Shown piece after piece: positions 3,799 through 22,132 of a stretch of 64,000 nucleotides of DNA. The position numbers were made by a program, and so were the translations under genes. A model generated the notes under the pieces. The model saw nothing but the letters and a program-made list of their open reading frames with translations, was not told where the DNA came from and ran no database searches. Source of the stretch: an uncultured Clostridia bacterium (GTDB taxonomy: Bacteria > Bacillota > Clostridia > Christensenellales > UBA3700). Position 1 is the stretch's first letter. The number at the start of each line of letters is the position of its first letter. The DNA is taken from NCBI GenBank assembly GCA_947038565.1, contig CAMQWP010000001.1, positions 192,381 through 256,380 of the forward strand. Direction: 5' to 3'.

Positions 3799-3908
3799 AC
3801 AAAACTCCTTTTTCTATCATGTCTTATACACTATTATATTTATTTATGTATAATATATACTTAAACTACTTTTGATGTTTTTTACTTAATTTCTTTGTTC
3901 ATGTTACG

Positions 3909-3922
3909 CGAACACTTGTACT
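3909..3922 (-). promoter_or_regulatory. LexA operator (SOS box) at lexA
   Basis: CGAACACTTGTACT fits the Firmicutes pattern GAAC-N4-GTTC with one change (GTAC). It sits 6 bases downstream of the lexA -10 box, a usual place for a repressor site. Confidence 0.6.
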
Positions 3923-3928
3923 ATTTAC

Positions 3929-3957
3929 ATAATACCACTATACTTATGTATTGTCAA
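3929..3957 (-). promoter_or_regulatory. promoter of lexA
   Basis: On the minus strand TTGACA at 3952-3957, a 17-base spacer, and TATTAT at 3929-3934. Confidence 0.8.
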
Positions 3958-4022
3958 TGCTTTTCACATCTTTGCATTGTCAAATATTGCCACACTTACT
4001 TATTTACTTACCTAATTATAAA

Positions 4023-4057
4023 ATATCGCAACACTAATAATAATAGCGTTGCGATAT
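4023..4057 (-). terminator. terminator of the sulfatase gene
   Basis: ATATCGCAAC (4023-4032) pairs with GTTGCGATAT (4048-4057). A TTTTATAATT tract follows on the minus strand. Confidence 0.7.
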
Positions 4058-4074
4058 AATACATTATTTCTCAT

Positions 4075-5436: not shown

Positions 5437-5644
5437 AATTCTCCCCTATTTATCACATATATTATTATATCATACATTGCATATTGGTGCAATAGCAAAC
5501 GCTTTTTTACCAGACTATTATTAAGATTTTAACAATATAACTAAAAATGTACTAATAACGCCTTAATATTAAATAGTTATCCTTATATATTCACGCTACA
5601 TTACGTCTAATTAATAGGATTTGCAAGATATGTACGATTTTTAC

Positions 5645-5673
5645 TTGTCAACTCTTGTAAAACAATGTAAAAT
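5645..5673 (+). promoter_or_regulatory. promoter of the AgcS symporter gene
   Basis: TTGTCA at 5645-5650, 17 bases, TAAAAT at 5668-5673. It leaves a leader of about 110 bases. Confidence 0.6.
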
Positions 5674-5750
5674 AGAATAGAGAATTATTATTTTATTATT
5701 CTAATTGCAATAATACTATTAATTAATTCTAGATTATTTTATATCAACGC

Positions 5751-5772
5751 GCAATATCTTGCAAGATATTGC
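5751..5772 (+). promoter_or_regulatory. perfect 22-base palindrome before the AgcS ribosome site
   Basis: Bases 5751-5772 read the same on both strands; each arm is GCAATATCTTG or its complement. It ends 6 bases before the AAGGAG ribosome site. A related half site, TTGCAAGATATG, lies at 5631-5642. It could be a repressor operator or an RNA hairpin next to the ribosome site. Confidence 0.55.
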
Positions 5773-5787
5773 AAACAAGGAGAAATA

Positions 5788-7248
5788 ATGGAAATACTAT
5801 CTAAAATAACCAGTTTCGTTTGGGATTATATTTTGCTATTCACTCTGGTCGGTGCGGGAATATTCTTCACTATAAGGCTAAGAGGTGTGCAATTTACGCA
5901 TATAGTTTTAGGATTTAAAACTACATTCAGACGTGCTCCAAAACCCGATGGACACAAGTCAACTTTTAGACGCCTTCGTGATGGTGAAAAATACAAACAC
6001 ATACAAGCTACTAAGATAGATTTACCTCTTTCTCCTTTCCAAGCACTTGCTACTTCAGTAGCTGCTCAGATAGGTACTGGTAATCTAGTAGGTGCTGCCA
6101 CTGCTATAACAATGGGTGGTGCTGGTGCAATATTTTGGATGTGGGTATCAGGGTTGTTCGGTATGGCAACTATTTTTGCCGAAGCCACTATGGCACAACG
6201 ATACAAGCGTGAGATAAACGGCGAAACTATTGGCGGACCTATCTGCTATATTAAAGGTGCTTTCAAAGGTACTTTCGGTAAAGTATTAGCTGTAATTTTT
6301 GCAGTACTTATAATTCTTGCCCTTCCTATCGCGGGCAATATGGTTCAAATAAATTCTATCACCGACGCCTTTAACACTGCTATACCTCAAATCCCTAACT
6401 GGGGTTACGGTATCATTGTTGTATTCTTTGCGGCTATTATCTTCCTTGGCGGTGCTAAAAGAATATTTAAGTTCACTGAGAAAATTGTTCCTATAATGGC
6501 ACTTCTATATATAGTAGGAGCTGTAGTAGTTTTAGGTTTCAATTATCAGTCTTTGGGTCAAGCCTTCTCTAATATCTTTGTAGGAGCTTTTGCACCTCAA
6601 GCAATAATCGGTGGTGTCGCCGGAGTTACCGTAATTAAATCAATGCGTTTTGGTGTCGCTAGAGGTCTTTTCTCTAACGAGGCTGGTATGGGCTCTACTC
6701 CTCATGCTCATGCACTAGCTAAAGTAAAACATCCAGCCGAGCAAGGTTGCGTAGCTATGATGGGAGTACTTATAGATACATTTATCGTACTTACACTTAC
6801 TTCACTAGTATTGCTATCAAGCGGACTAGTAGGTCAAGAAGGTATGGTCGGAATAAAACTAGTTCAAGAATCATTCGCCGCAGTATTCGGTGATTTCGGA
6901 TATTTCTTTATCGCGATTTGTCTTTTCTTTTTCGCTTTCTCTACGATCATAGCATGGTACTTTTTCGGTGTTACGAACGTTAGATATCTTTTCGGAGAAA
7001 AATCAGTTAAGTTTTATGCGATTATTGTTTTAGCATTCTTAATGCTAGGATCTTCTTTAAAACTAGATCTTGTATGGACACTATCTGACCTTATGAATGG
7101 ACTGATGGTACTGCCTAATATACTTGCTCTTCTTGCTCTTAGCTCTGTTACCGCTAGAACTCTTAAGGAGTTTAAAAAACTTAACAAAGACGGTACTCTA
7201 AAGAGTTATCAACAAAGTGTACATAGATACAACTCGCTAAAAGATTAA
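5788..7248 (+). CDS. AgcS-family sodium/alanine (or glycine) symporter
   Basis: A 486-residue inner-membrane protein with about ten or eleven hydrophobic helices. The N-terminal FTIRLRGVQF, the long Pro/Arg-rich loop before PLSPFQALATSVAAQIGTGNLVGAATAITMGGAGAIFWMWVSGLFGMATIFAEATMAQRY, and SNEAGMGSTPHAHA are signature blocks of the alanine-or-glycine:cation symporter family (AlsT/YrbD/DagA group). It would import small neutral amino acids with sodium. It is a single rightward gene with its own promoter, palindrome and terminator. The exact substrate cannot be read from the sequence. Confidence 0.95.
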   Translation: MEILSKITSFVWDYILLFTLVGAGIFFTIRLRGVQFTHIVLGFKTTFRRAPKPDGHKSTFRRLRDGEKYKHIQATKIDLPLSPFQALATSVAAQIGTGNLVGAATAITMGGAGAIFWMWVSGLFGMATIFAEATMAQRYKREINGETIGGPICYIKGAFKGTFGKVLAVIFAVLIILALPIAGNMVQINSITDAFNTAIPQIPNWGYGIIVVFFAAIIFLGGAKRIFKFTEKIVPIMALLYIVGAVVVLGFNYQSLGQAFSNIFVGAFAPQAIIGGVAGVTVIKSMRFGVARGLFSNEAGMGSTPHAHALAKVKHPAEQGCVAMMGVLIDTFIVLTLTSLVLLSSGLVGQEGMVGIKLVQESFAAVFGDFGYFFIAICLFFFAFSTIIAWYFFGVTNVRYLFGEKSVKFYAIIVLAFLMLGSSLKLDLVWTLSDLMNGLMVLPNILALLALSSVTARTLKEFKKLNKDGTLKSYQQSVHRYNSLKD

Positions 7249-7332
7249 TTAATTTATTCATAATACTAACGTATTGTTTGTCTATTAGATAATCTTACAT
7301 TAACAAACTAATATTTTATTTTATATAATATA

Positions 7333-7367
7333 AATACTGCAAAGCGTTATGCCTTGCAGTATTTTTA
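7333..7367 (+). terminator. terminator of the AgcS gene
   Basis: AATACTGCAAAGC (7333-7345) pairs with GCCTTGCAGTATT (7351-7363) with one mismatch, then TTTTA. Confidence 0.8.
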
Positions 7368-7675
7368 TATCATTCATATGGCATATGTTTCGCGGCGCTT
7401 AGTCTTACATACGCCGCATACACATTCTTACAGTACAAATATAGATCTAACAAACTATCTTTACACTACATATCACAATCATTTAAATAGAGAGGGTTTA
7501 TTATTTTTTCTTTATCCCTTACATACTTTCCTTTTTATCTTTTATTACTTGTTTATATCATAGTGCTTCAATAACTTATTTTTAAGATCACTGATTGCTT
7601 TGTCTATATATACACCTTATCCACTTCTATATTTTGAAACACTAGTTAGCACTCTTTCGTCCTTCATCAAGCATG

Positions 7676-7708
7676 AAAAAAGAGCGGTAAATAATTACCG
7701 CTCTTTTT
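7676..7708 (-). terminator. terminator of the GPH symporter gene
   Basis: AAAAAGAGCGGTAA pairs with TTACCGCTCTTTTT (7695-7708). It works in both directions and lies just past the stop of the leftward symporter gene. Between 7368 and 7675 I see nothing. Confidence 0.8.
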
Positions 7709-7719
7709 ATTATTTTATA

Positions 7720-9495
7720 TTAGTGTTTTACTTCCTCGTCAGTACTTGCGTCTTCTGCATTTACTTCCTCGTCAGTTTTATCCATGTCCGCATCTTCTAA
7801 AGCAGCTGCGTCCATTCCTTCGATGATTTCTTCACTAGTAAGTGGATTACCTACTAATAGCTGATCATCTAAAGTCTCGTCAATAACAGTAATAGACTCA
7901 TTATCAATAACAATACCATTCTCTTCTATAAAATCAGATAATGCATTGATGTCGCCTTCTTCTAGTCTAATCTCTAACATGTCTCTATCTTCATCACTAA
8001 TAGTCTCGTCATCATGTAAAGCTCTTACTTTTAGTACTTCCATTATCATCTCATGTTTTTTCTCTGGTAGATCCCAGAAGAAATAAGGAATAGCTGACAA
8101 TAGACAACTTACAATACAAACACCTGACATAATAGCTACGATAGCGTATAATGCCTCATGACCTGGAGTCAATAAGATATCATTGTTCATACCGTCATAA
8201 CCTTGTGAGTTAAATACAGCTGGAGAGATAAGTGCTGTTGCCATACCTATAGCAAGAGTTATCATACCGCCAAACTGAGATAAGAAACCTTCTATACGGT
8301 CGCCTGTCTTATATTGTTGATAATCATTGATTTCCGCTTGGAAAGCAGGATTAATAACAAGCTGGAATCCAGCAAAGATAGTAGTAACATATATAAAGAA
8401 TATTCCTGCCCATGGATTATGGACAAACGTCAATGGTATCATCGACAAAGCCATACCTATATTAGTACCGATAATTAATTTCTTCTTACCGAATTTCTTA
8501 ATAAATACTGGAGCAAATAACATACCTGGAACACTAGCTGTACCTATAACAAGCATTAGAATAGACTGCATTAACTTAGCTAAGTCTTCTAGTCCTTGTG
8601 CTTTCAAATCTGGGCTTATAACAAAGTTAAGATACCAAATAACAAAGTTCGTCATAACGAATACTTTTATAATTGCAAGTACCATTGATGAATTGTGAAT
8701 CCAGAAATATTTATTTTTCGCAACCTTCTGAACACCTTCCATGAATTTTTGTTTTTGCTTAAATTCTTTTGATATAACCATACGCTCTTTAACGCCGAAC
8801 GCCATGATTAGACCTAAGCCAAAGAATACGGCTGCCATGATTGGTGCAAGCACCTGAGCGGTAGCAACAGTATTAACACCATCTGCGGTATCAGTACTAT
8901 ATATAATATTAGAAAGTGCAGGGTATACTGCCCATACGATTGTCGGTCCAAGCGAGGTGAAAATCGATCCGATGGACATTAGCTGGGTTCGCTCTTCCAT
9001 ACTCGGCGCCATAACTTGTGCAAGACTTACAAAGGCTAAGATATATACTCTATTAAATAAGTTTACAAGGTTGAAAAGTATAGCGTAAGTTATGATCATA
9101 ACTAGACTATCCTCGATCCTTAATACCTGACCTAAAGCAAAGAAACAAGCAATGATAGGAATAGGTAAGACTATCAAATACGGTCTAAATTTACCATATT
9201 TGGTATTAGTATTATCTATCAACCAGCTTACTAGCGGAGAAGTAACAATTGCTACTACCGAAGTTATCATAACAACGATTGCTATGTGATAAGCATCTAT
9301 TGATCTTGCATTTGCAATGTAGAAACCTGTTTGTAGAGCATACAAATTAAGGAATACAGTTGCACCCATTGCGCCCATACCACCAATTGCATATAGCAAC
9401 CACTCGCGAAGCGTTAATGACTTACCTGGACACGGAGTGCTCCACTTTGGTAATCCATTAATCATTTGCTTTATTTTACCATTTTCTTTACCCAT
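7720..9495 (-). CDS. GPH/MelB-type sugar:cation symporter with acidic tail
   Basis: A 591-residue major-facilitator protein of the glycoside-pentoside-hexuronide group. Twelve hydrophobic helices span about residues 27-490. The cytoplasmic loop SWLIDNTNTKYGKFRPYLI is the MelB-family motif (D-x-T-x-x-K-x-G-x-x-R), and the second-half loop EAINDYQ-type segment (NPAFQAEINDYQQYKTGDRIEGFLSQFGG) is also typical. It would import a glycoside or uronide with sodium or protons. About 100 C-terminal residues are acidic and extend past the usual family end (EEVNAEDASTDEEVKH); such a tail may be regulatory. GAGGGG precedes the ATG. Confidence 0.92.
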   Translation of the reverse strand: MGKENGKIKQMINGLPKWSTPCPGKSLTLREWLLYAIGGMGAMGATVFLNLYALQTGFYIANARSIDAYHIAIVVMITSVVAIVTSPLVSWLIDNTNTKYGKFRPYLIVLPIPIIACFFALGQVLRIEDSLVMIITYAILFNLVNLFNRVYILAFVSLAQVMAPSMEERTQLMSIGSIFTSLGPTIVWAVYPALSNIIYSTDTADGVNTVATAQVLAPIMAAVFFGLGLIMAFGVKERMVISKEFKQKQKFMEGVQKVAKNKYFWIHNSSMVLAIIKVFVMTNFVIWYLNFVISPDLKAQGLEDLAKLMQSILMLVIGTASVPGMLFAPVFIKKFGKKKLIIGTNIGMALSMIPLTFVHNPWAGIFFIYVTTIFAGFQLVINPAFQAEINDYQQYKTGDRIEGFLSQFGGMITLAIGMATALISPAVFNSQGYDGMNNDILLTPGHEALYAIVAIMSGVCIVSCLLSAIPYFFWDLPEKKHEMIMEVLKVRALHDDETISDEDRDMLEIRLEEGDINALSDFIEENGIVIDNESITVIDETLDDQLLVGNPLTSEEIIEGMDAAALEDADMDKTDEEVNAEDASTDEEVKH

Positions 9496-9796
9496 AAAAA
9501 TACCCCTCTATAGTTTATTTGACAATCCCCATCATCAATGTTGAAAATTATTACAATTTGTTTATTTATTATATAAATATGTATTTTTTTCTAACATATA
9601 ATACTTTTTATCTATATATAATAAACGTACAACAACTTATAGTAACATATTCATCGCACATTTGTCAAGGCGGTATCGACTTTTTAATGTAAAAATACTA
9701 TGATTTTGTATATTATGCAAATTATTGCTTGCACTTTAATTCTATATGTATTATTTTTCTTTTTTTCTTGACTAATGCATTTATGAGAAAATAAAA

Positions 9797-9826
9797 ATAG
9801 ATGGAATGTTATAACCCCATCTATTA
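9797..9826 (-). terminator. terminator of the ESCRT-III/Vps4-like operon
   Basis: AATAGATGG (9797-9805) pairs with CCATCTATT (9818-9826); on the minus strand it is followed by a TTTTATTTT tract. The bases between 9496 and 9790 show nothing else. Confidence 0.75.
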
Positions 9827-9857
9827 CTTACTAGCCTTAAGATATTATATTTGTTGT

Positions 9858-10472
9858 CTATATCAATTCTTCTATTTTATCTATCTCTTCTACTGTAGGC
9901 ACATCGTTAAAAGCAGACATATCATCACTGATTGCTTGCTCATCAAACATGGCAAGTATGTCTTGTTGCCCTACTGACGAGCCATATATACTATCATTTT
10001 CTACATACGCCGACTCAGCCATGTCGAAGGTATCAAGCACGCTCTCCAAACTCTCTTCACTATTCATCTTAGTAGCATTTACACTATTTAGAAATTTAGA
10101 TAACTGAGCAGGTTGTTTTAACATTTCATTAAGCGAGATGTTTGCATTGTTAGATAAAAACTCTCTATCGTCCATTGCAGATTTCAGCTGATACATAGCA
10201 CTCATATTAGTCGCGATAAATTGCAGCCTCTTACCATACATTGCATTATTCTTCTTTAGGTTTTCTATGTTCTTAGCATAGAATACACGCATGTTTGTGT
10301 CTTTCTCGGCTTTACCCTTTGCAAATAATCCCGTAATAGTTACGTTGTTTTCTTCAATACTTGAGACAATGCTTTCTTGCTGTTTCTCTAGCTGAATTAT
10401 AGAGTCAACTACCTCAGTTCTTGATATCTTATCGAATTTAGTTTTTTTCTTAAATATGTCAAAAAAGCCCAT
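9858..10472 (-). CDS. second ESCRT-III (Snf7)-like protein, last gene of the operon
   Basis: A 204-residue, almost entirely helical, soluble protein. It begins MGFFDIFKKKTKFD, a short hydrophobic-then-basic start like the membrane-anchoring end of Snf7 proteins. Residues about 18-60 and 63-110 form two long charged helices (SIIQLEKQQESIVSSIEENN and AKNIENLKKNNAMYGKRLQFIATNMSAMYQLKSAM), laid out like the alpha1-alpha2 hairpin of ESCRT-III. The C-terminal third is acidic with further short helices and ends VPTVEEIDKIEELI, a possible ATPase-contact tail. It has no obvious MIM1 arginine/lysine end, unlike the first-gene paralogue. Nine bases separate it from the preceding gene. Assignment to the Snf7 fold is from pattern and context, not from a search. 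Confidence 0.6.
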   Translation of the reverse strand: MGFFDIFKKKTKFDKISRTEVVDSIIQLEKQQESIVSSIEENNVTITGLFAKGKAEKDTNMRVFYAKNIENLKKNNAMYGKRLQFIATNMSAMYQLKSAMDDREFLSNNANISLNEMLKQPAQLSKFLNSVNATKMNSEESLESVLDTFDMAESAYVENDSIYGSSVGQQDILAMFDEQAISDDMSAFNDVPTVEEIDKIEELI

Positions 10473-10481
10473 ATTTCCTCC

Positions 10482-10820
10482 TTAGATAACTATAGTTTTT
10501 CTCTCTGCGATTAACACTCTAAGCTCATTTATTTCATCTATCACTCTAGCATCTTTTTTCGGATTGCTTACGATTATTTTTATATCATCTAGTTTAGATA
10601 AAATTTTATGCTCTACTTTTTCTGCTGATGACAACTCGCTAGGACTAAGAAATTTCATATCCTCGCGTAAACTGTCTAGCATAAGTTTATAATCCTTATT
10701 TTCAGTCATCTCCATGAGTACTGATATACGGTTACATGCCATTAATTGCATGTCCTCAACTGTGTCTTTTACTAATTTTTTCTCGCGCTTATTTGCACGT
10801 CTTCTAGCTAAAAATCCCAT
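10482..10820 (-). CDS. short helical protein of the ESCRT-like operon (unknown)
   Basis: A 112-residue soluble helical protein, fourth in the operon. The start is the ATG at 10818-10820, preceded by GAGGAGG. It begins MGFLARRRANKREKKLVKDT, the same MGF-plus-basic opening as the two ESCRT-III-like proteins. Two or three helices with heptad-like spacing follow (EDMQLMACNRISVLMEM, KVEHKILSKLDDIKIIV, VIDEINELRVLIAERK). I do not recognise a family. It is about half the length of an ESCRT-III core, so it may be a reduced relative or an adaptor. Confidence 0.65.
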   Translation of the reverse strand: MGFLARRRANKREKKLVKDTVEDMQLMACNRISVLMEMTENKDYKLMLDSLREDMKFLSPSELSSAEKVEHKILSKLDDIKIIVSNPKKDARVIDEINELRVLIAERKTIVI

Positions 10821-10837
10821 GATTACATCCTCCTCAA

Positions 10838-11794
10838 TTATATTTCTTTGCCACACGTTTGACAAAACTTGCTGCCCGGAGCAACTACTGTACTGCAACT
10901 GCTACAGACTCTTGACATGCCTTGAGCCTCACCACAATTTCCGCAAAATTTACTACCCACTGGCATAGATATGCCACAATTTCCACAGAATACAGTATTG
11001 CTTTGTGCGACAGGTCTTGTAGCTTCAGCTACTTTTGTCACCACTCGTTCGTTACTGTCACGCTCTTCTTTGTCTATCTCTAGCTCTTCTTTGCGTAATT
11101 GTGCATGGCTGGTATCTTTTTGCTGAAGCATGTATCTTTCTTCCATTAACTTTATCCTAGTCGCTTTTATATCTTCAGGAAAGACAATATTATCGATAGT
11201 AAATGCTTTTAATACAACACCATACTCATCAAAACTATCAGTAAGCTCTACTTCTAACTGTTCAGAAAGGTTTTTCACATCTGATGCAAGATCAAAATAA
11301 CTAGTACCCTCATCGACCAATTTTCTAGCAAAAATATCCTTTACGTTAAGAGAAATAATGCTTTTCAGAAAGCTAACCAATGACTTAACATCAGCGATCT
11401 TGCCAGTGCCAAGTAATCTTTTGTACACTTTCATAGTGTTATTTATCTCGAAAACAACGGTACCGCTAGCACCTAAGTAAGCAGGCATCTTCGTATCAAC
11501 ATCGATAAATTCTATATGCGAAGGAGTGCCCCACAGCGACTGTAATCTGACTTCATTATTGATAAAAGTGATATCTATATCTATTTTTTTCTCGCCCTTT
11601 GGCTTAGCAATTTCATGCTTGCCCGACTGCATTATTTTCATGTCTGTACCATTGACAACAACTACCGCCTCAGTATTAACTGGAACCATTAAATATGCGT
11701 CTACCTTCACATCTCTATGTGCAGATCTAACTACTAGGTTATCGCCCATACCACTATCAAGTCTAATTATTAGATCATTATTAAAAATACCCAT
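10838..11794 (-). CDS. SPFH/band-7 protein with two C-terminal zinc ribbons
   Basis: A 318-residue protein. Residues about 15-215 form an SPFH (prohibitin/flotillin-type) domain, without a transmembrane helix. A charged helical linker (ATRIKLMEERYMLQQKDTSHAQLRKEELEIDKEE) leads to two treble-clef zinc ribbons, C270-C287 and C297-C314, with the repeated pattern CGNCG / GSKFCxxCG. The layout is that of Bacillus subtilis YdjI, encoded in an operon with PspA, itself a distant ESCRT-III relative. Here it lies 12 bases after the Vps4-like gene. It probably forms ring assemblies that recruit the ESCRT-like proteins to membrane; this role is inferred. Confidence 0.85.
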   Translation of the reverse strand: MGIFNNDLIIRLDSGMGDNLVVRSAHRDVKVDAYLMVPVNTEAVVVVNGTDMKIMQSGKHEIAKPKGEKKIDIDITFINNEVRLQSLWGTPSHIEFIDVDTKMPAYLGASGTVVFEINNTMKVYKRLLGTGKIADVKSLVSFLKSIISLNVKDIFARKLVDEGTSYFDLASDVKNLSEQLEVELTDSFDEYGVVLKAFTIDNIVFPEDIKATRIKLMEERYMLQQKDTSHAQLRKEELEIDKEERDSNERVVTKVAEATRPVAQSNTVFCGNCGISMPVGSKFCGNCGEAQGMSRVCSSCSTVVAPGSKFCQTCGKEI

Positions 11795-11806
11795 TTAATT
11801 TTCCTC

Positions 11807-12961
11807 CTACTTTTTACCTTTCATGTCTTGTTCAAACTTTTGCAGAGCCTTGATATCAGTCTGTAATACTGACGAACTTGATGACTCCATCACTTCATTA
11901 AAATGCTGTCTTGTGATAGGTAGCATTTCTTTGCTTTGCATTTTGATTAAATCTTTTAATATACACATTTTGATTCTATCGCACAGCTCATTACAATCCG
12001 CACCATTATACCCTTCAGTAGCAACGGCCATTTCTGCAATAGTTACACCATTCAGTTGCATATCCTTTAGCTTTCTATTTATAAGATATTCTCTTGCTTC
12101 AAGATCTGGCAATGGCACATATAATAGCTCATTGAATCGACCTGGTCTTAATAATGCCGAGTCAATATCCCAAGGTCTATTAGTGGCTGCCAGTATCAAA
12201 AGTGTATTTTCACTGTCACCAAAACCTTGTATTTGAGCAAGTAACTCAGGCACAATTCTATTCATAACAGTAGAATTTCCGCCACGCTTTACGCCTATAG
12301 CCTCGAACTCGTCGAAAAATATTACTGCGCGTTCATGACTTCTTGCTTCAGCGAATAGATTTTTAAGATTTTTCTCCGCCTCACCAAACCACTTACTAAC
12401 TATATCACTACACTTAACTTGATAAAAATTCCCCCCGACCTCGCTAGCTATAGCCTTTGCGATCATGGTTTTACCTGTACCAGGTAGACCATACATTAGT
12501 ATTCCGCCACCTGCTTTTAGGTCGACCATTTTATAATACTCGGGGTACTGCAACGGTAGTAATATCCTGTTTTTGACAGCATCCTTTACTTCGTTTAGTC
12601 CCGCTACGTCTTCAAAAGTAATGCCCGTGTCTCCTGTCGCAGTAAACGAATTACCATCATCTTCGCCATTTTCTTTTCCATCTTCCCCTAGACTGTTGCC
12701 ACAATTACTATTCGATTTCTTAACAGTATTACTAGTAGGACGCACGGAAGTGTCTATACTCTCAGCAATCTCGATAATGTTTTTCGCTCTCTCCATTTGA
12801 CTACGTTTTACAGAGCCGTCATTTTCTTTCGCTGATGAGATAAGCATTTCTGCAGCTTTCATTAAAAACTTTTTGCAAGCAAGCATGTCTCCAGCATTTT
12901 TATAAACGATAGCTTTATCATAATATAATTTAAACATTTCATAATGTTGACTACCAGCCAT
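11807..12961 (-). CDS. Vps4-type AAA ATPase with N-terminal MIT-like domain
   Basis: A 384-residue ATPase. Residues 1-72 are three amphipathic helices laid out like a MIT domain (YEMFKLYYDKAIVYKNAGD, ACKKFLMKAAEMLISSAKE, SQMERAKNIIEIAESI). A low-complexity linker (73-112) leads to one AAA module: Walker A GLPGTGKT (158-165), Walker B VIFFDE (213-218), sensor-1 N261, arginine fingers R272/R275. The pore-loop stretch CSDIVSKWFGEAEKNLKNLF (184-203) is the hallmark of the Vps4/katanin/spastin clade. The C-terminal stretch PITRQHFNEVM...SVLQTDIKALQKFEQDM matches the closing helices of Vps4. There seems no room for the eukaryotic beta domain. Its ribosome site AAGGAG lies in the last codons of the upstream gene, so the two are coupled. 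Confidence 0.88.
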   Translation of the reverse strand: MAGSQHYEMFKLYYDKAIVYKNAGDMLACKKFLMKAAEMLISSAKENDGSVKRSQMERAKNIIEIAESIDTSVRPTSNTVKKSNSNCGNSLGEDGKENGEDDGNSFTATGDTGITFEDVAGLNEVKDAVKNRILLPLQYPEYYKMVDLKAGGGILMYGLPGTGKTMIAKAIASEVGGNFYQVKCSDIVSKWFGEAEKNLKNLFAEARSHERAVIFFDEFEAIGVKRGGNSTVMNRIVPELLAQIQGFGDSENTLLILAATNRPWDIDSALLRPGRFNELLYVPLPDLEAREYLINRKLKDMQLNGVTIAEMAVATEGYNGADCNELCDRIKMCILKDLIKMQSKEMLPITRQHFNEVMESSSSSVLQTDIKALQKFEQDMKGKK

Positions 12962-12964
12962 ATA

Positions 12965-13549
12965 TTACTCCTTAATGCTTTGCTTTAAGTCCGCAAGTGA
13001 CTTCTCAATATCCATATCAAACTGTGCATCCTCTTCGTCTTCCTGAGCCGCTAAATACTTCTCCACCTCTTTATCATCAATAGATGCACCTTGATTTGCA
13101 ACACTGCTATAACTATCGTTAGTAGTGTCCATTAATATCTCAAGCTGTGCAGACGCCATCTCTACGCCAGTAATAGCACTTTCAAATTCTTTTTGCACTT
13201 TGACAAAATTCATATCTTTAGTAGTTTTACTCATCTCTACACTAAGCATACTCATGCCGTCAAGAAATAATGATGTTACTTTTGTTAGATCTTTCATCTG
13301 TGACGCTAGCTCAAAATTAAGCTGCATTTCTTTAGCCTTTTTTTGTTGCATCATCGCCATCTTCAGCCCTGATAAAGCAAGATTATACTGTGCGTCCAAT
13401 CCTTCTTGCTTTGCCCTCTTTGCGGCTTCAAGATATTTGCCTTTTTGATCTTCTAACTCACGTATATGCTTGTTAAATTGGTTAATAGTTTTCTTAATAA
13501 TCATACGTTGTTCCATTTCTTTCTCTTGCTTAGACTTAAAAAACCCCAT
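12965..13549 (-). CDS. ESCRT-III (Snf7/CHMP)-like protein with MIM1-type tail, first gene of the operon
   Basis: A 194-residue soluble helical protein. It begins MGFFKSKQEKEMEQ; residues 17-50 and 52-98 form a long basic helical hairpin (NQFNKHIRELEDQKGKYLEAAKRAKQEG, then NLALSGLKMAMMQQKKAKEM), followed by LFLDGMSMLSVEMSKTTKDMNFVKVQKEFESA, which has the order and spacing of CHMP alpha3/alpha4. The rest is acidic. The last residues, D178-M-D-I181-E-K-S184-L185-A-D-L188-K189, fit the MIM1 pattern (D/E)xxLxxRLxxLK with Ser for Arg. Three bases separate it from the Vps4-like gene. Net basic first half and acidic second half are typical of ESCRT-III. It should polymerise on membrane and be remodelled by the ATPase; that is inferred. 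Confidence 0.78.
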   Translation of the reverse strand: MGFFKSKQEKEMEQRMIIKKTINQFNKHIRELEDQKGKYLEAAKRAKQEGLDAQYNLALSGLKMAMMQQKKAKEMQLNFELASQMKDLTKVTSLFLDGMSMLSVEMSKTTKDMNFVKVQKEFESAITGVEMASAQLEILMDTTNDSYSSVANQGASIDDKEVEKYLAAQEDEEDAQFDMDIEKSLADLKQSIKE

Positions 13550-13621
13550 TTTTTTCTCCTCGTAATGCTAAAAGCAAACTTTATTTTTTCTCTATATAAT
13601 TCGACTACTTAAATCACGTAA

Positions 13622-13650
13622 ATCAAAAGCACGCAATTAAGCGTTGTCAA
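13622..13650 (-). promoter_or_regulatory. candidate promoter of the ESCRT-III/Vps4-like operon
   Basis: On the minus strand TTGACA at 13645-13650, a 17-base spacer, and TTTGAT at 13622-13627. The -10 is poor, which would suit an inducible operon; the leader is about 70 bases. Confidence 0.4.
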
Positions 13651-13870
13651 ATAATTGTATTTTAACTGCAATCCTTAATATATAATATTTAGAATTGGAT
13701 ATATATTACATAATACCATTTTTTGCACTAAAAAGTCAATACTCATTACGCATACGGCGTATATTTTACATTTTAAAGCTTCTAAAAGCCAAAGTTAGCC
13801 TTTATTTGTCCGTAATGATAAATTTTTCTTGCATTAGTTTATTATATTTTACCCGTAAACCGCAAAGAAA

Positions 13871-13897
13871 ACAGCCCACTGATAAATAGTGGGCTGT
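13871..13897 (-). terminator. terminator of the predicted glycan-enzyme gene
   Basis: ACAGCCCACT (13871-13880) pairs with AGTGGGCTGT (13888-13897); TTTTCTTT follows on the minus strand. Confidence 0.8.
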
Positions 13898-13938: not shown

Positions 13939-15990
13939 TTATATATTTATTTCATTAATCCCCGCAATTATAGAATAATTATTGTTCGATATATTTATTG
14001 TACCGTCCTTAATCGCCCTTATGACATATGTTTTCACATGCTTATCATCAGAGTAAAAAATATCGTTTTTCATATAGCAATTATACAATTCATATTTCCC
14101 GTCATCGCATTGGTGGATAAAAGCCCTACCAAACACAGTTTCAGTTAAGCACTTGAAATGTTCATGCACGTCGTTATCGCAGCTACCTCCAGCACTTCTT
14201 TTAAGTTTTAGTTTCTTAAAATCAAGAACGTATTGGAATATTAATTTCTCAGGATCTTGTCTATACCAGTCGGATATCATTGGCATATATTTTTCCCCGA
14301 CTACAGTAGGCACAAGTACCGCGTGACCATCATTGCCACGCTCAAATGTCTCCCCTACTATACAAGGGTCAGCCACAAACGCCCAGTTTAGAACACCTTG
14401 CTCGTCTATCACTTGCATGCACGCACCCATGGTATCCATTGTTAGTTTCAAATATTCGAACTTCCCTGTCAGCATGTATAAATAATAACATGCACAGTTT
14501 TTCCAGCTTGTCCAGCCGTGAGGAGTATTTAGCATATTATACCTAAAGTTTATATCATATCTTGCTTCCCAAAAACGCAATGTCGCACCAAATGTTCTAC
14601 AATCAGGAATTATAGTTTGCTGCAAACACTTGTGTTTCTCAAAAATTTCTTCTGCAACGCTCGTTAAACCTTCACGATTTTTACTCTCATTATAAGCCAA
14701 GAATGCAAGCTGCAGTACTTCACACGAGATCATTCCGTCCTCAAAAGTCATCTGTCCTTCCGTGCCTATATTGTCCTTATTTTTATGTAGATCATAGATA
14801 GCACGCCTTGCACTGTCCCAGTGTATTTTACTGCGATCTAGTAGTCCTATTTCTCTCTCTTTTATAGCCAACATAAGCATGCTTTTTGCCGGATAAATGA
14901 CGCATGTATAGTGTATATTATGAGAGCGATAGCTACCATCAGCATGCTGACACTTTAACAATACTTCAGCATTATTATTAGCTCTTTCCATGTATTTCAT
15001 ATCGCCTGTAAGCGAATAAAACTCTAATAACAGTTCGAAAAAACCTGACGTGTTTTGTATCCTATGCGGAAGTGCTTTTTTCGCTAATGTGCCATGCCTA
15101 TTTGTTATTACCTTATAAAACTTTTCAAACTCACTTACTAACTGCGATGTGTACTCAGTATTATTTAATATCTTTGCGTAGGCTACTCTAGTAAAATATC
15201 CATACCAACTCTCTACGTGAGAGCCTGCTTTTTGTTGACAATTTTCTGCACTTTTACTTGCATTTTCTAGATAATAAAACCAGTCATGTCTTACATATAC
15301 ACTCGTTTCTGCGTCACCTTCTTCGCTTATAATGTGACGACCTACTTCATCAAAAGTTATCTCTTCACCCTTGTGCGTAATACTCTCTTTTGGCTGCATA
15401 ATATACCTTGATGGCAATTCGAAAAGTATCCCTGTTTTAGCAGTAATATATTCATATCCTTCTTGCACGCTATCCACCATCTTATAGTATATATCTATCT
15501 CGTACTTATCATTAGCATTTATCTCTTTTGCACTCTTCGCATGCCTCAATGGTTGCTCATGAACATTAAAAAATTCTATGCTACTAGTATATATTCGATG
15601 TCCCACGTCAGACATTAAATAGTTTGACCTATTATATTCGTTCTTCCATGACACTATATTTCCAGGACATGCCACGGTAATTATTTTACCTAACGGCGAT
15701 ACGAACATTCCCCAAAACCCTTCCTTCTCACACCTTAGTGCCGTTGGGAAGAATTTATCATTCCACTCTGGATACGTATCCATGTATGTATCTATGCCGA
15801 GTCTAAAGCCTACCGCCTCACAGTCTATGCGAGATGTTGCAATAAAAGATATGTGAGTATGCTTTTCACCCTCTTTCACTTGGTTTTCGGTACTTATCAT
15901 CGCTAAACTTGCACTGATATCTTTACTTTTTCCCTTCACAGTCATGTAGACCGATTGCTTGTAATTATCCGTCCTAAAATACTTTTCCAT
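13939..15990 (-). CDS. predicted alpha/alpha-barrel carbohydrate-active enzyme
   Basis: A 683-residue soluble protein without a signal peptide. Residues about 1-210 look beta-rich (FIATSRIDCEAVGFRLGIDTYMDTYPEWNDKFFPT, FWGMFVSPLGKIITVACPG). Residues about 230-560 are helical with repeated small-residue and aromatic motifs typical of an (alpha/alpha)6 barrel (ESWYGYFTRVAYAKIL, NTSGFFELLLEFYSLTGDMKYMERANNNAEVLLKCQHADGSY, TPHGWTSWKNCACYYLYMLTGKFEYL). LEFYSLTGD..Y...A and CQHADGSY recur in six-hairpin glycosidases and unsaturated-uronide hydrolases. I cannot name the family or the catalytic residues. AAGGGG precedes the ATG. A role in polysaccharide breakdown fits the nearby sulfatase and GPH symporter but is inferred. 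Confidence 0.6.
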   Translation of the reverse strand: MEKYFRTDNYKQSVYMTVKGKSKDISASLAMISTENQVKEGEKHTHISFIATSRIDCEAVGFRLGIDTYMDTYPEWNDKFFPTALRCEKEGFWGMFVSPLGKIITVACPGNIVSWKNEYNRSNYLMSDVGHRIYTSSIEFFNVHEQPLRHAKSAKEINANDKYEIDIYYKMVDSVQEGYEYITAKTGILFELPSRYIMQPKESITHKGEEITFDEVGRHIISEEGDAETSVYVRHDWFYYLENASKSAENCQQKAGSHVESWYGYFTRVAYAKILNNTEYTSQLVSEFEKFYKVITNRHGTLAKKALPHRIQNTSGFFELLLEFYSLTGDMKYMERANNNAEVLLKCQHADGSYRSHNIHYTCVIYPAKSMLMLAIKEREIGLLDRSKIHWDSARRAIYDLHKNKDNIGTEGQMTFEDGMISCEVLQLAFLAYNESKNREGLTSVAEEIFEKHKCLQQTIIPDCRTFGATLRFWEARYDINFRYNMLNTPHGWTSWKNCACYYLYMLTGKFEYLKLTMDTMGACMQVIDEQGVLNWAFVADPCIVGETFERGNDGHAVLVPTVVGEKYMPMISDWYRQDPEKLIFQYVLDFKKLKLKRSAGGSCDNDVHEHFKCLTETVFGRAFIHQCDDGKYELYNCYMKNDIFYSDDKHVKTYVIRAIKDGTINISNNNYSIIAGINEINI

Positions 15991-16179: not shown

Positions 16180-16608
16180 TTATAAGAATTTCTTTAATTG
16201 CTCGATATTATTAAGCTCTGTTTGTTCAAGTTTTTTCATAAGCTCTACGCATTCTTCGCAAGCATCTTCATTTTCTTTGACCTGTCTTATTGCTTGGATA
16301 ATACCCATATTGCTACCGATGATAAGCATCTCCGCGATATGTGACGGAGAATTATCCGCCATCGTCTGGAAATTAATCATCATATACGTCTTGATTTTAT
16401 CGAATGTGCCTATATCGACTATATCCTTACCCTTAGCCTCAATGATTTCTTTTGCTCGACGATTTATCTCGATATACTCATTGTACTGCACTTGTAGTTG
16501 TTCAATGAAATCTTGATCCTCAACAATTGTCAACAATTGCTTAACAGTGGTTACACCCATCTCCGAATTTTGATAAATATAATTAATCAATTCACCTTGC
16601 TTTTTCAT
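16180..16608 (-). CDS. ferritin-like four-helix protein of unknown function
   Basis: A 142-residue helical protein: MKKQGELINYIYQNSEMGVTTVKQLLTIVEDQDF..L..QYNEYIEINRRAKEII, then HIAEMLIIGSNMGIIQAIRQV and a C-terminal helix ending NNIEQLKKFL. The arrangement of four long helices with conserved Glu/His suggests a ferritin-like bundle, as in a conserved clostridial family I know only as hypothetical; a metal role is not established. It has AGGAGAG before the ATG and its own terminator. Confidence 0.7.
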   Translation of the reverse strand: MKKQGELINYIYQNSEMGVTTVKQLLTIVEDQDFIEQLQVQYNEYIEINRRAKEIIEAKGKDIVDIGTFDKIKTYMMINFQTMADNSPSHIAEMLIIGSNMGIIQAIRQVKENEDACEECVELMKKLEQTELNNIEQLKKFL

Positions 16609-16791: not shown

Positions 16792-18990
16792 CTATTTTAA
16801 CCAACTTATACCATTTATGCCTTTATCCCAGAAATACCCAAAAATATAGCTGTCTTTTTCGTTAGGCATTCTTAGATATAGCTTATCACAGTTATAAAAT
16901 GCTCTCTCACCTATCTCATTAAGACTCTCGCCGATATAGAATGATGTAAGACTTGTACAATTATAAAACGCCGTTTGATTTATTTTAATTAGTCCTTTGA
17001 TTTTTGGTGCTGTTACTAGACTCGTACAATTACGATATGCATCAACTGGTATTTCTGTAATCGTGTCAAAGCCCACGCCTCTTACGATTATCAGGCTCGA
17101 ACTGTTTGTAAATAGCGGATGAGCTGACATTTCAGCATCGATACAAATTTCCTTTATAATATAATTGTTGGTAAAATAATCCAGATCTACAAATTTAACT
17201 TTAAGATTCCCTATTTCTTCAGCTATCTCTACCATTAGCACGTCACCTTCAACGTGTGAAAATTCATAATACTCTTTGCTTTCGTTCAGCGTGTATGCAA
17301 CATTATTATACATAACTTCCTGCTCGACATTTACATCCGTCGACGCATTAACATCAACATTCATTGTTACTACGCTTACTACTGCTATTACAATAATAAA
17401 CAGACTAATTAATATGAATGGTAGAATAGGACTTTTTTTCTTCGCTGCCTTTTCTTCCTTTTTATGCTTACGATACTTCTCTTCATGATATTTTTTATTA
17501 GCACTTGTTTTCTTAAAAGTATTATCCTTGTTGTTGTCATAATAGCTTGGAGTACTACCATTAAAAGTAGTCTTTACATTATTAGCTATGTTTTTTCCTG
17601 TTATGACTACGTTATTAAGAACATCAGTGATTTTGCGTTCTAAAGACGGATTACCATAGTTTTGTTGTGCATTATTGTGGTTGTTTGTACTTGACTGCCT
17701 CGCCACAAGATTCTCTTTTGCTCTCATAACCAGCCCTGTCCATATTATTTTTTGCTCATGGTCACTAGAGTAAGTTATTGCATTAATATAGTTTATATCC
17801 GAAGTATAGTCAGCCAATACTCCCGCAATATCTTTTTCGTCCGAAATACGATTGTTTGCAAGCATTTTAAGCCACCACATCTCGCCACAGTTTGGTGCTA
17901 ATTTTTGCACCTCTTCTAATACTTCTATTGCCTTTATAAAGTTAAGCGAATATAACATACCACGTGTCTCTTGCAACATCTGATCGACCTTAATATTCTC
18001 TCTCGCACCATTCGAATAATTTGTATTGTAGGATTTCCCCTCCATACTTTTTTCATACTTTGCCCTATCTATCTCTCTAAATGACCTAATACATAGATCA
18101 GCAAGCTGTCTCTTAGTATTACCTACACCGTCCACCCACATTTTTCCATCGAAAAAGTCGTTAAACAATGATGTATGTACACTATTATCTATCTTGTACT
18201 CTACTCTTGCTTTGCCTAATGATTTTGCTATATTGATCTCGCTTTTGATGTCTTTTGACATCATTGCGTCTTCACTAGATATTACCAGAAAGATAGAACA
18301 ACTATTTATAGCTTTAGTTATATTATCCCAATAGTTAATTGTATCGTTTGGTCGCAAGTTCCTAGTGGATATCCAACACTTATGACTATCTTCCTCTAGC
18401 TCTGTCACTACCTGCTCTGCCACATCTATATCGGTACTTCTATGACACACGAATATGTCTCTAGGAATATCATCATAATTATCTTCCATAGCACGTCTTG
18501 TTGCGTATTGTGCTTTGTATAATTTCAACTCATCACAATTATCTACGCCATCAAGAGCCATTATGAAAGACTCTATATCTATCCTATCTCTTAGGTCACT
18601 GTACTCGTATACGTGACTTAATACACGCCTTGTGTCACTTGGTGTCAAGTTCACACTTTCACTACCGTAATAATCTTTAATATACGCGTTATGTCCTAAT
18701 ACATTTTCGGCGTATGCATAGTAATATTGAGACAGCCCATCACCAGCGACTATCTCTAATATATCATAAGACGACTTGGAGATGCTTCCTATGTCATTAG
18801 CACCCACAGCGTCACTTTGTATATTTCTAAGGTTTTTTAGTTTGCAAGAAATTGCCTCGTCAATACTGCCTAGTTTTTTGCTAGACTCTACAAAATATTC
18901 ACTTCCGCAAGCGGGACACTCGGCAACACTTACGCCCTCATCAGCACTTACATTCGCCCCGCACATAGGGCATTTCATTAATTCTAACAT
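16792..18990 (-). CDS. TIR - transmembrane - LRR protein with N-terminal zinc ribbon
   Basis: A 732-residue protein, read from the ATG at 18988-18990 (AAAGGA before it) rather than an earlier in-frame start. Order: zinc ribbon (CPMCG..., CPACG, residues 7-29); a helical region; a TIR domain at about 176-305 (DIFVCHRSTDIDVAEQVV, CWISTRNLRPNDT, CSIFLVISSEDAMMSKDIKSEINIA); a helical, TPR-like stretch with EVQKLAPNCGEMWWLKML; an Asn-rich linker; a lysine-rich stretch before one membrane helix (about 520-543, ILPFILISLFIIVIAVVSVVTM); and a C-terminal BspA-type leucine-rich domain (CTSLVTAP, INQTAFYNCTSLTSFYI, IGERAFYNCDKL). The lysines before the helix put TIR inside and LRR outside. E251 in KSEINIA sits where the TIR NAD-glycohydrolase glutamate is expected. 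Confidence 0.85.
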   Translation of the reverse strand: MLELMKCPMCGANVSADEGVSVAECPACGSEYFVESSKKLGSIDEAISCKLKNLRNIQSDAVGANDIGSISKSSYDILEIVAGDGLSQYYYAYAENVLGHNAYIKDYYGSESVNLTPSDTRRVLSHVYEYSDLRDRIDIESFIMALDGVDNCDELKLYKAQYATRRAMEDNYDDIPRDIFVCHRSTDIDVAEQVVTELEEDSHKCWISTRNLRPNDTINYWDNITKAINSCSIFLVISSEDAMMSKDIKSEINIAKSLGKARVEYKIDNSVHTSLFNDFFDGKMWVDGVGNTKRQLADLCIRSFREIDRAKYEKSMEGKSYNTNYSNGARENIKVDQMLQETRGMLYSLNFIKAIEVLEEVQKLAPNCGEMWWLKMLANNRISDEKDIAGVLADYTSDINYINAITYSSDHEQKIIWTGLVMRAKENLVARQSSTNNHNNAQQNYGNPSLERKITDVLNNVVITGKNIANNVKTTFNGSTPSYYDNNKDNTFKKTSANKKYHEEKYRKHKKEEKAAKKKSPILPFILISLFIIVIAVVSVVTMNVDVNASTDVNVEQEVMYNNVAYTLNESKEYYEFSHVEGDVLMVEIAEEIGNLKVKFVDLDYFTNNYIIKEICIDAEMSAHPLFTNSSSLIIVRGVGFDTITEIPVDAYRNCTSLVTAPKIKGLIKINQTAFYNCTSLTSFYIGESLNEIGERAFYNCDKLYLRMPNEKDSYIFGYFWDKGINGISWLK

Positions 18991-19392: not shown

Positions 19393-21354
19393 TTACCAAG
19401 AGCTACCACCACCACCGCCGAAACCGCCGCCGCCTGAGCTTCCTCCGCCGCTAAATCCGCCGCCACCACCGCCACTGCTTGACGATGAGCTAGGAGGCTT
19501 AGCTGAGCTTGCCGATCTCATAATGCTGTTTGCACTATTGATTGCTGAAGAGAATACCACATAATTAAACATTGCTCCGCGACCACTAGGGCTATTATCC
19601 CAAGAAGGTGCAGTAAGAGGTATATCCTTGAACTTATCTTGCCATACCTCACTTACACCCATTACTTGTGCATAAGGCAGTACTTTATAATAAAACTCTG
19701 GATATTCTTCTATCATTGTCTCTAGTTTGTCTTTTTCAGCTAACAAAATGAAGTTTCTGAACCCTTGTATTTCACCAAGTATTGCACAATACTCTGGATC
19801 ACGCTTTAGTATAAATGGCGTAAGAATAAGTGGGAATACCGATGCAATTGATACAAGAATAGACGTCATTATGTCTAGCTTGCCAAGATACGTAAACACG
19901 GCAGCAATTATCGCCATCAACGCGACGCTTGCTACTCCATATATGATAATGTGTGTCTGATGTTTCTTTTTATCATGCTTTATATCATGCCTAGAGATGA
20001 TACCACCCAAGCTAGAAAACGCGAATAATAAAGCACTTAATACAATTCCCATTATAATGTTAGGAACATTAAGGACCCAACTAGACAAGTAGTCAAGACC
20101 TACCATCAATGCAGGAAGTGCACACGCCACAACAGTCAAACCTGTTGACATTGTTTTAGAAATCTTTGTGTATGAATATTTTTTCATGTCTTCTTTCAGC
20201 TTACTACTAGCAAGGGATACTACTGAACCAAACTCGTGATCCAAGTCAGCTATTCTTACCACATTACCACTTTCAAATAAGCCGTCGAATAATTCTTGAT
20301 CATAAATATCATCGTTACCATCTTTGCCTTTTGGCGGGTAATATTCTCTAACTTTTATGAGTTTTGTATTAGAAGGATCGATTTCATCAATATCTATTTT
20401 TATCAAACCTTCATTAGCCCAATAGAAAATCATGCATGTGATATCTTCTTGATCTATATCACCATCGATGATATATCCAACCTCGCAAGGATAAAGTCCT
20501 CGCGGAGCTTTAAAAGCTACTGGTGCAATTAATTCATCCTCTCGACCACGAATAGCAAATACTATAGTTAGTATGATTATCACTATTCCCATAATGCCTA
20601 GTATTACAAGATTCCACTCGATACGTAGAGTAAATACTCCATCTTCGAATTGCATTCTAGAAGTGACACCGCTAAATGCTTGCAATGCGATACCCGTATC
20701 ACCACTAGGCTCCATCACGAAAAATTCAACACCCTTAATAGTCTCCGTTTCCTGTCGAACTACTACGTTTGCATTATTGTCTTTCACGCCAATATTACCT
20801 GACACGGTATCATATGTAGGAGTAGCACCCTCAGGGAAGGCTAACAACACCTTAAAATCCTCTATGTATGTATCAAAGCCAAACGGCACAAGGTTTAGAT
20901 ACAATTCGTCATTAAAAGTCGTCCACCCTGGTAAAACCATTGTATAACTTACGCTATACTCATGATTGCCCGTCAAGTATTTTCCTTTTGATCCAATTTT
21001 TAACCTTAAAAAGTCACCCTCTGATATCACCGACATTTTTTGACCGCTTGATATACGCACGTCATCATACTTCTCTCCGCTATTACGAGGCAAATCAAGT
21101 ATAATACCTTGCTTTCTTGTATTGAAAACAGCAGTTAAATCAATATTAACTTTGACTTTTTTGTCGCTTGTTACCTCATATTTGTAGTCGATATTTTCAT
21201 AATAATATGTATCATCCACGTCTCCAGGTCTTGGCACAGACGAACTGCCCACGAAGTTTGTAATGAAAACTATTAAGAAAAACAATACCATGACACCCGC
21301 GATTATAAGCGGCACATACTTGACTATATTATCTCTTATTTTATCTTTACTCAC
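19393..21354 (-). CDS. DUF2207 membrane protein with Gly/Ser-rich tail
   Basis: A 653-residue membrane protein. One helix at residues 12-35, then an outer beta-sandwich DUF2207 domain (about 45-240; YYYENIDYKYEVTSDKKVKVNIDLTAVF...GIILDLPR..., NDELYLNLVPFGFDTYIEDFKVLLAFPEGA), a second helix near 248-268, a cytosolic winged-helix-like part (CEVGYIIDGDIDQEDITCMIFYWANEGLIKI), and more helices at about 405-510. It ends in SSSSSSGGGGGGFSGGG..GGGGGSSW, as usual for the family. It follows lemA by 9 bases; LemA-DUF2207 pairs are common in Firmicutes and linked to envelope functions, but their biochemical role is unknown. Confidence 0.93.
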   Translation of the reverse strand: MSKDKIRDNIVKYVPLIIAGVMVLFFLIVFITNFVGSSSVPRPGDVDDTYYYENIDYKYEVTSDKKVKVNIDLTAVFNTRKQGIILDLPRNSGEKYDDVRISSGQKMSVISEGDFLRLKIGSKGKYLTGNHEYSVSYTMVLPGWTTFNDELYLNLVPFGFDTYIEDFKVLLAFPEGATPTYDTVSGNIGVKDNNANVVVRQETETIKGVEFFVMEPSGDTGIALQAFSGVTSRMQFEDGVFTLRIEWNLVILGIMGIVIIILTIVFAIRGREDELIAPVAFKAPRGLYPCEVGYIIDGDIDQEDITCMIFYWANEGLIKIDIDEIDPSNTKLIKVREYYPPKGKDGNDDIYDQELFDGLFESGNVVRIADLDHEFGSVVSLASSKLKEDMKKYSYTKISKTMSTGLTVVACALPALMVGLDYLSSWVLNVPNIIMGIVLSALLFAFSSLGGIISRHDIKHDKKKHQTHIIIYGVASVALMAIIAAVFTYLGKLDIMTSILVSIASVFPLILTPFILKRDPEYCAILGEIQGFRNFILLAEKDKLETMIEEYPEFYYKVLPYAQVMGVSEVWQDKFKDIPLTAPSWDNSPSGRGAMFNYVVFSSAINSANSIMRSASSAKPPSSSSSSGGGGGGFSGGGSSGGGGFGGGGGSSW

Positions 21355-21363
21355 TTAGACCTC

Positions 21364-21954
21364 CTAAAATGAGAACTTGACATTCTCTCGCTCAGTAACC
21401 TGAGCCTCGAAGAACGGACGTTGTTCAAGGTTCATTTTTTTAGCGAAGTGACTACCTGGGAATTTTCTTATAGCAACATTAAACTTCTTAACCGTTGCAT
21501 TATAATATGACCTTGCTTGTGCAATTTCATCCTCAATATCAGTAAGTTCTTTTTGCAACATCAAAAACTGTCTATCCGCTTTTAATTCTGGATAAGTCTC
21601 TTGCATCATCATAAGTCTAGCACATTGATTACCAAACTCACCTTCCGCCTCGAACTTGGCACCGCCAACAGCAGTACGCGCAGAGTTACGAGCAGCTATT
21701 ACACGCTCTAGTGTCTCGCTTTCATGCTTAGCATAACCTTTTACTGTCTCTACTATTCCAGGGATAAGATCATATCTCTTTTTAAGATAAACGTCCATTG
21801 TAGAAAAAGACTCGTCAACAGTGACTTCACTCTCTACAAACTTATTTTTGCTAGAAATACTCCAGCCTACATACGCAATACCACCAATAACAACAGCGCC
21901 AACACCGACACCTATACCTATTGTCACGCCCACACTTAATGCACTTACTACCAT
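21364..21954 (-). CDS. lemA: LemA-family protein
   Basis: A 196-residue LemA protein. One N-terminal membrane helix (VGVTIGIGVGVGAVVIGGIAYVGWSI), then a helical bundle with FVESEVTVDESFSTMDVYLKKRYDLIPGIVETVKGYAKHESETLERVIAARNSA, the family signature. The start is the ATG at 21952-21954, with CGGAGGG upstream; an earlier in-frame ATG has no ribosome site. The N-out topology with a cytosolic or surface bundle is typical. It is first of the two-gene operon with DUF2207. Confidence 0.95.
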   Translation of the reverse strand: MVVSALSVGVTIGIGVGVGAVVIGGIAYVGWSISSKNKFVESEVTVDESFSTMDVYLKKRYDLIPGIVETVKGYAKHESETLERVIAARNSARTAVGGAKFEAEGEFGNQCARLMMMQETYPELKADRQFLMLQKELTDIEDEIAQARSYYNATVKKFNVAIRKFPGSHFAKKMNLEQRPFFEAQVTERENVKFSF

Positions 21955-22132
21955 ATAATTACCCTCCGTATATTTGTATTTCTGTTTTGATTTTACTTTT
22001 ATAACATATAAAACATTGTATGCAATTACTACAAATAATATATAATAATTATACAAGTTTTTTACATTATATCATAATTCGTCAAATTTTGCAAGTTTTC
22101 TTTTTTTGAGTATTTTGAGGAAAAATCAAAAA

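Follow-up and report, generated by a model that had tools for sequence, protein, structure and literature searches.

In animals, Toll-like receptors (TLRs) combine leucine-rich repeats (LRRs), a single membrane helix and a cytosolic TIR domain in one chain. The same three modules are joined in a 732-aa protein encoded in the window, the stretch of 64,000 nucleotides from an uncultured Clostridia bacterium that was analysed here, but in the opposite order of TIR, membrane helix and LRR. Compared with the animal receptors, the protein has a short BspA-type LRR, a zinc ribbon, TPR-like modules and ESCRT-like neighbour genes, and nearly all members of its family retain a candidate catalytic glutamate. 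The module order and the LRR type (about 62 residues, with no long LRR solenoid) rule out membership of the animal-type TLRs. Plant TIR-NB-LRR proteins also place the TIR before the LRR in one chain; however, the 732-aa protein contains no nucleotide-binding domain and possesses a membrane helix. With SARM1 and the bacterial TIR NADases (AbTir, SPARTA TIR-APAZ and TIR-STING), it shares the TIR fold and the glutamate at the catalytic position, whereas it differs from them by its membrane anchor, its zinc ribbon and its ESCRT-like partners, and no Argonaute, STING or SAM domain was seen. In the case of Thoeris, the similarity to ThsB is weak and confined to the TIR (E 0.0027, PADLOC), and Pfam and PADLOC scans of neighbouring proteins revealed no ThsA-like domain or partner. 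Membership of the Thoeris, SPARTA and CBASS TIR systems was dropped, as the weak PADLOC matches lie inside the TIR only and no partner genes were seen. The 732-aa protein is a bacterial TIR protein, a known kind, in a new variant form.

The cassette of genes near the TIR gene resembles the archaeal and eukaryotic ESCRT-III/Vps4 systems, with which it shares a Snf7-like protein, a predicted MIT-AAA protein with a Vps4-like C-terminus and an SPFH protein with a zinc ribbon, the last of which is included in some archaeal ESCRT systems (PMC11188069). However, the cassette is bacterial, has a TIR protein, and sometimes carries BrxL or a zinc-ribbon protease. Phage-shock systems (PspA, YdjI) likewise place an ESCRT-III-superfamily protein and an SPFH/band-7 partner at the membrane, PspA being paired with SPFH in PSP-type systems (PMC11237479). 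The cassette differs from these systems: its protein is of the Snf7 type rather than the PspA type, and it is accompanied by an MIT-AAA ATPase and a Toll-type TIR protein; in the consulted sections of PMC11237479, no Toll-type TIR was seen. BREX membership was rejected, since BrxL occurs alone and in some related operons. In the literature searched, which covered few subscription papers, no description was found of a TIR with Snf7/SPFH/MIT or BrxL, or of a bacterial TIR with a BspA LRR, and the TIR–cassette operon may be a new system.

The TIR gene starts with an ATG at 18990, immediately preceded on its 5' side by a ribosome-binding-like AAAGGA motif, and ends with a stop codon at 16792 on the minus strand, which agrees with the limits (16792–18990) given by the initial annotation. 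From the N- to the C-terminus, the product consists of a zinc ribbon, a helical region, the TIR, TPR-like helices, a lysine-rich stretch, the membrane helix and the BspA-type LRR (Table 1). The ribbon, TIR, helix and LRR had been listed in the initial annotation and all stand, but the helical region (about 45–169) and the TPR-like region (about 329–437) had been omitted. AlphaFold2 models residues 1–430 fairly well and the outer part poorly (pLDDT about 30–63). At the N-terminus, none of the zinc-ribbon Pfam models passes its cut-off; the two CxxC pairs, C7/C10 and C25/C28, are invariant in 15 relatives and uphold the zinc ribbon proposed there.

Table 1. Features of the TIR gene, its product and the neighbouring cassette, in window coordinates.
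Feature	Position	Strand	Basis
Zinc ribbon/helical/TIR/TPR-like/membrane helix/LRR gene	16792..18990	(-)	ORF, Pfam, AlphaFold2
N-terminal zinc ribbon, residues 7–32 (C7, C10, C25, C28)	18895..18972	(-)	cysteines invariant in 15 relatives
Helical region from ribbon to TIR, residues 45–169	18484..18858	(-)	AlphaFold2 helices, pLDDT about 72–90
TIR domain, residues 174–311	18058..18471	(-)	TIR_2 E 2.4e-12; SARM1 and SPARTA TIRs at Z about 17
E251 codon (GAG), candidate catalytic glutamate	18238..18240	(-)	conservation in relatives
TPR-like helical region, residues 329–437	17680..18006	(-)	AlphaFold2 pLDDT mostly 80–95; TPR Pfam matches of relatives here
Lysine-rich low-complexity linker, residues 438–520	17431..17679	(-)	sequence, charge count, low pLDDT
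Predicted membrane helix, residues 521–543	17362..17430	(-)	hydropathy
BspA-type LRR, about three repeats, residues 643–704	16879..17064	(-)	LRR_5 E 1.9e-12
142-aa protein, directly downstream of TIR gene	16180..16608	(-)	same position in G002
683-aa orphan gene, between 142-aa gene and cassette	13939..15990	(-)	no Pfam family
Snf7a, Snf7/ESCRT-III-like coiled-coil protein, 194 aa	12965..13549	(-)	47% identical to L113 protein
AAA ATPase, MIT-like N-terminus and Vps4-like C-terminus, 384 aa	11807..12961	(-)	AAA E 2e-38
SPFH/band-7 protein, C-terminal double zinc ribbon, 318 aa	10838..11794	(-)	Band_7_1 E 2e-14 (over cut-off), DZR E 5e-9
Small conserved protein of about 110 aa	10482..10820	(-)	profile matches in many of the operons
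Snf7b, second coiled-coil protein, possibly ESCRT-III-like, 204 aa	9858..10472	(-)	alignments

The TIR assignment draws on profile and structure together. Pfam TIR_2 matches residues 179–257 with 47.8 bits against a cut-off of 28 (E 2.4e-12), and the modelled domain superposes on SARM1 with a Z score of 17.1 and an rmsd of 2.0 over 124 residues, while the SPARTA TIRs give Z scores of about 17. Residue E251 sits in the helix 246–258 of the model, where TIR NADases carry their catalytic glutamate, and is invariant in 15 full-length relatives. In a wider set of related TIR domains, a glutamate is kept at this position in 29 of 30; it is lost in the TIR of G103. The nearest solved TIR by sequence is MyD88 (E 6e-4), which shows no glutamate there in the alignment. 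These results bear out the TIR domain with a glutamate at the expected position that had been read from the DNA, and the AlphaFold check suggested at the time returned a TIR rather than a different fold; the suggested domain search matched both TIR_2 and LRR_5 well over their cut-offs. A survey of TIR domains reports that this glutamate is not always accompanied by activity (PMC7075850). NAD breakdown by the predicted TIR is possible, and we infer both an NADase activity and a role in defence for the protein.

Hydropathy gives one membrane helix, at about residues 521–543. The 30 residues before the helix hold 13 K/R and 4 D/E, with 1 K/R and 6 D/E after it; because of this charge bias, an N-in/C-out topology is expected, consistent with the single helix and the lysine-rich N-in signal of the initial annotation. 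The two further proteins of the genus that bear an LRR likewise carry more positive charge before the helix than after it, as does L115, a longer protein described below. Beyond the helix, Pfam LRR_5 scores 47.7 bits against a cut-off of 27.7 at residues 643–704. As the AlphaFold2 model of this part is too poor for fold comparison, the LRR is assigned from its Pfam match and its repeat motif. An LRR lying outside the cell is supported by these motifs and by the predicted topology.

A contig search with the full protein gave nothing, and alignment of the N-terminal part gave six loci. The N-terminal 310 residues, comprising the ribbon, the helical region and the TIR, define a family in uncultured Clostridia, the named matches of which are MAGs labelled Clostridia or Clostridiales. 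No relatives were found in viral contigs, phages or plasmids, and a mobile-element origin of the TIR protein was dropped on this account. A single membrane helix followed by a BspA LRR is present in the window protein (P0001) and in L034 and L033 of the same genus. Eight relatives (L036, L068, L069, L070, L071, L072, L076 and L035) end in three to five membrane helices with neither LRR nor ectodomain; L035 is a paralogue encoded in the same genome as the 732-aa protein. In L073, L074 and L075, the ending is a soluble Sel1-repeat region without a membrane helix. Since the N-terminal block continues into three to five membrane helices or Sel1 repeats in these relatives, the LRR is an accessory rather than a defining module. 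What the family conserves, as predicted from its sequences, is a zinc-ribbon/helical/TIR protein, usually membrane-anchored and often encoded in an SPFH/ESCRT-III-like/Vps4-like operon.

The same operon slot also holds other, distantly related TIR proteins with LRRs. In G194, the protein (L115, 1907 aa) contains a TIR, a membrane helix, Flg_new and LRR_5; in G065 (L123), a TIR, membrane helices of uncertain number and LRR_5; and in G171 (L126), a TIR and LRR_5 with no predicted membrane helix, so that its LRR cannot be outside by that route. The LRR of TIR–LRR proteins is not always outside the cell. Because LRR-bearing TIR proteins occur in these three loci, the combination of TIR and LRR probably arose more than once; such proteins sit in both main clades of the TIR tree, a tree with several weak forks and with flagged long branches. 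Membrane anchoring recurs across separate TIR lineages.

The initial annotation had called the protein a reversed TLR. Of this description, the TIR fold, the candidate glutamate, the one helix, the opposite module order and, by topology prediction, the outer LRR hold, but the LRR is accessory. The survey for the same architecture that it proposed recovered TIR–helix–LRR proteins in the genus and in L115 and L123, but L126 has no helix and most relatives have no LRR. A ligand receptor modelled on the TLRs, as the protein had been conceived, is not what the family conserves, as the LRR is variable and often replaced.

Further variation was observed among the TIR proteins. In L124 (4298–8005), the C-terminal end of a TIR–membrane protein is a ribosomal protein L7/L12 C-terminal domain (E 1e-15). 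The TIR slot of G165 and G188 (L111, 8645–12415; L122, 9896–13663) is occupied by zinc-ribbon proteins of 1255–1256 aa that combine membrane helices, a TIR-like region of high divergence and a C-terminal domain that is rich in repeats and GLUG-like by eye; in the one scanned, the TIR-like region gave no Pfam TIR match. Weak matches to DUF2207-like membrane segments occur in the TIR proteins L112 and L121, and a DUF2207 and LemA gene pair lies directly upstream of the TIR gene in the window (19393–22056).

On the 3' side of the TIR gene, the minus strand of the window carries the 142-aa gene, the 683-aa orphan and then the compact cassette (9858–13549), which is separated from the TIR gene by 3.2 kb, with the orphan between. 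G002 shows the same gene order without the orphan. A homologue of the 142-aa protein lies near the TIR/ESCRT-like operon of G065. The 683-aa orphan, with no homologue among the loci examined, is probably not part of the system. The small conserved protein is counted from an ATG and would reach 138 aa from an upstream TTG. No BrxL was found beside the window TIR gene.

The ESCRT-like identity of the cassette proteins is supported to different degrees. The window Snf7a by itself reaches E 0.22 against Pfam Snf7. Its homologue in G103 (L113), 47% identical, scores 34 bits against a cut-off of 27.3 (E 2.8e-8), and the window protein is placed in the Snf7 family by transitivity. AlphaFold2 models Snf7a as a long hairpin with following helices and a C-terminal helix (mean pLDDT 64), and its C-terminal acidic-to-basic Leu motif resembles MIM1. 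The top three Foldseek matches are archaeal CdvB (probability 0.96–0.97, E about 0.05), and with VIA-align, BAR domains score at least as high as ESCRT-III; given this and the moderate confidence of the model, the fold by itself is no more than suggestive of ESCRT-III. Profiles of Snf7a and Snf7b searched against the PDB found matches at chance level only, CHMP2A at E 2.9 among them, and no Pfam Snf7 match up to E 0.1 was found among 16 Snf7b members. The best PDB match of the AAA N-terminal profile is the chitin synthase 1 entry 2mpk (E 8e-5), which we take to be an MIT domain. Vps4_C is matched in 12 of 14 members of the AAA family and stays below cut-off in the window AAA; the ATPase domain also resembles those of the Cdc48 type. 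In contig 10 of G279 (L128, 5719–7254), a Snf7a-like region (profile E 2e-31) and an FtsK/SpoIIIE ATPase domain (Pfam E 2e-28) are fused in one protein, whose gene is followed by an MIT-AAA gene and a TIR frame.

The linkage between TIR and cassette was assessed by searching the MIT-AAA profile across the order and then TIR_2 in the AAA-bearing genomes. Of 31 such genomes, 16, belonging to six families, have a TIR_2 gene no more than 10 kb from the MIT-AAA gene, whereas uniform placement predicts 0.69 (P 5e-20). When the five genomes that seeded the AAA profile are removed, the count is 11 of 26 against 0.53 (P 3e-13); both P values ignore relatedness among genomes. The linkage extends over both main TIR clades as well as the six families, and is firm. 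The operons are same-strand; many of their intergenic gaps are shorter than 60 bp, and overlaps occur between several genes. In G279 and G221, the order is TIR-SPFH-110aa-Snf7b-AAA; in G012 and G007, SPFH-110aa-Snf7b-Snf7a-AAA-BrxL-TIR; and in G036, G194, G292 and G171, the TIR lies between Snf7a and AAA, with a zinc-ribbon protease after AAA. The cassettes of G087, G179, G215 and G141 have no TIR within 10 kb, and the contigs of G117 and G249 are too short to judge. Snf7b is present in 21 of 297 genomes of the order. In a class-wide search, Snf7a was matched in 4 of 391 genomes, all of the same order, and therefore no claim is made beyond it: the system was found within one uncultured clostridial order only.

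BrxL is present in part of the operons (L107, L108, L110, L113, L127 and L133), and no other BREX genes were noticed near those that carry it. At L037 (G020, 1–13889), a diverged TIR gene adjoins a Snf7-like gene (Pfam E 0.004) and an AAA gene whose product begins with an MIT-like region; genes for an SNF2 helicase and for nuclease-like proteins lie alongside, and the locus looks like a defence island. The BrxL of several operons and the SNF2-helicase and nuclease-like genes of G020 lean towards defence.

There is about an even chance, in our estimate, that the 732-aa protein is the TIR component, or membrane-tethered TIR effector, of an ESCRT/SPFH membrane-surveillance or remodelling operon. 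In such an operon, the SPFH protein and ESCRT-III-like polymers would come together at the inner side of the cell membrane, with the AAA ATPase recycling them, and the TIR, which its helix would anchor there, would stay off while this machinery rests. Membrane damage or attack, such as phage entry, would lead the TIR to oligomerise and to cleave NAD+ via E251, resulting in growth stop, cell death or signal production. The short outer LRR would be an addition particular to this lineage, perhaps serving to fix the protein to the cell wall or to make it responsive to a ligand. A bolder form, which we hold tentatively and consider somewhat doubtful, is a new class of immune or membrane-integrity system, in which a membrane-anchored TIR NADase physically coupled to the ESCRT-III/Vps4/SPFH machine would sense membrane attack by way of that machine and deplete NAD+, with interchangeable outer-domain sensors (LRR and others).

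That MyD88 is the closest solved TIR by sequence would suit a non-enzymatic scaffold, in which the TIR, like that of MyD88, does no more than self-assemble and forms a platform at the membrane; the SPFH/ESCRT-III-like machine would be recruited or nucleated there for routine envelope repair, vesicle formation or division, with no NAD chemistry; however, the glutamate retained in nearly all the related TIRs, and missing from MyD88 in the alignment, makes this unlikely. It is a good deal less probable than an even chance, and distinctly improbable in our view, that an external ligand, on binding to the outer LRR, directly causes the cytosolic TIR to dimerise and break down NAD+, with the neighbours secondary. 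The union of TIR, one helix and LRR in one chain, the clear N-in charge pattern and the LRR-bearing forms in separate TIR lineages (L115, L123) favour such a receptor, whereas the LRR comprises about three repeats in the 732-aa protein and gives way to three to five membrane helices or Sel1 repeats in most family members, the helix is missing from L126, and the linkage to the cassette is stronger than that to the LRR. BspA-type LRR matches are abundant in this bacterial family, as would be expected if the LRR were an adhesin or cell-wall anchor of a surface or host-interaction protein and the cytosolic half an accessory; this is very improbable, since it is the cytosolic block that is conserved, and an ectodomain is missing from most relatives. 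Least credible, with hardly any probability left to it, is that the TIR gene and the cassette do not work together and are neighbours by coincidence or because both sit in one defence island: some cassette genomes do have no TIR within 10 kb, but the excess of linked genomes over expectation, its spread over six families and two TIR clades, and the same-strand genes that overlap or nearly do so all speak against it.

If the membrane-tethered TIR does belong to the operon, TIR immune domains and ESCRT-III/Vps4 remodelling, two hallmark eukaryote-like modules, would be joined in one bacterial operon. Such an operon offers a testable answer to the question of how membrane damage could trigger a TIR. 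Furthermore, if the outer LRR works as a sensor, a TLR-like design would have arisen independently in bacteria.
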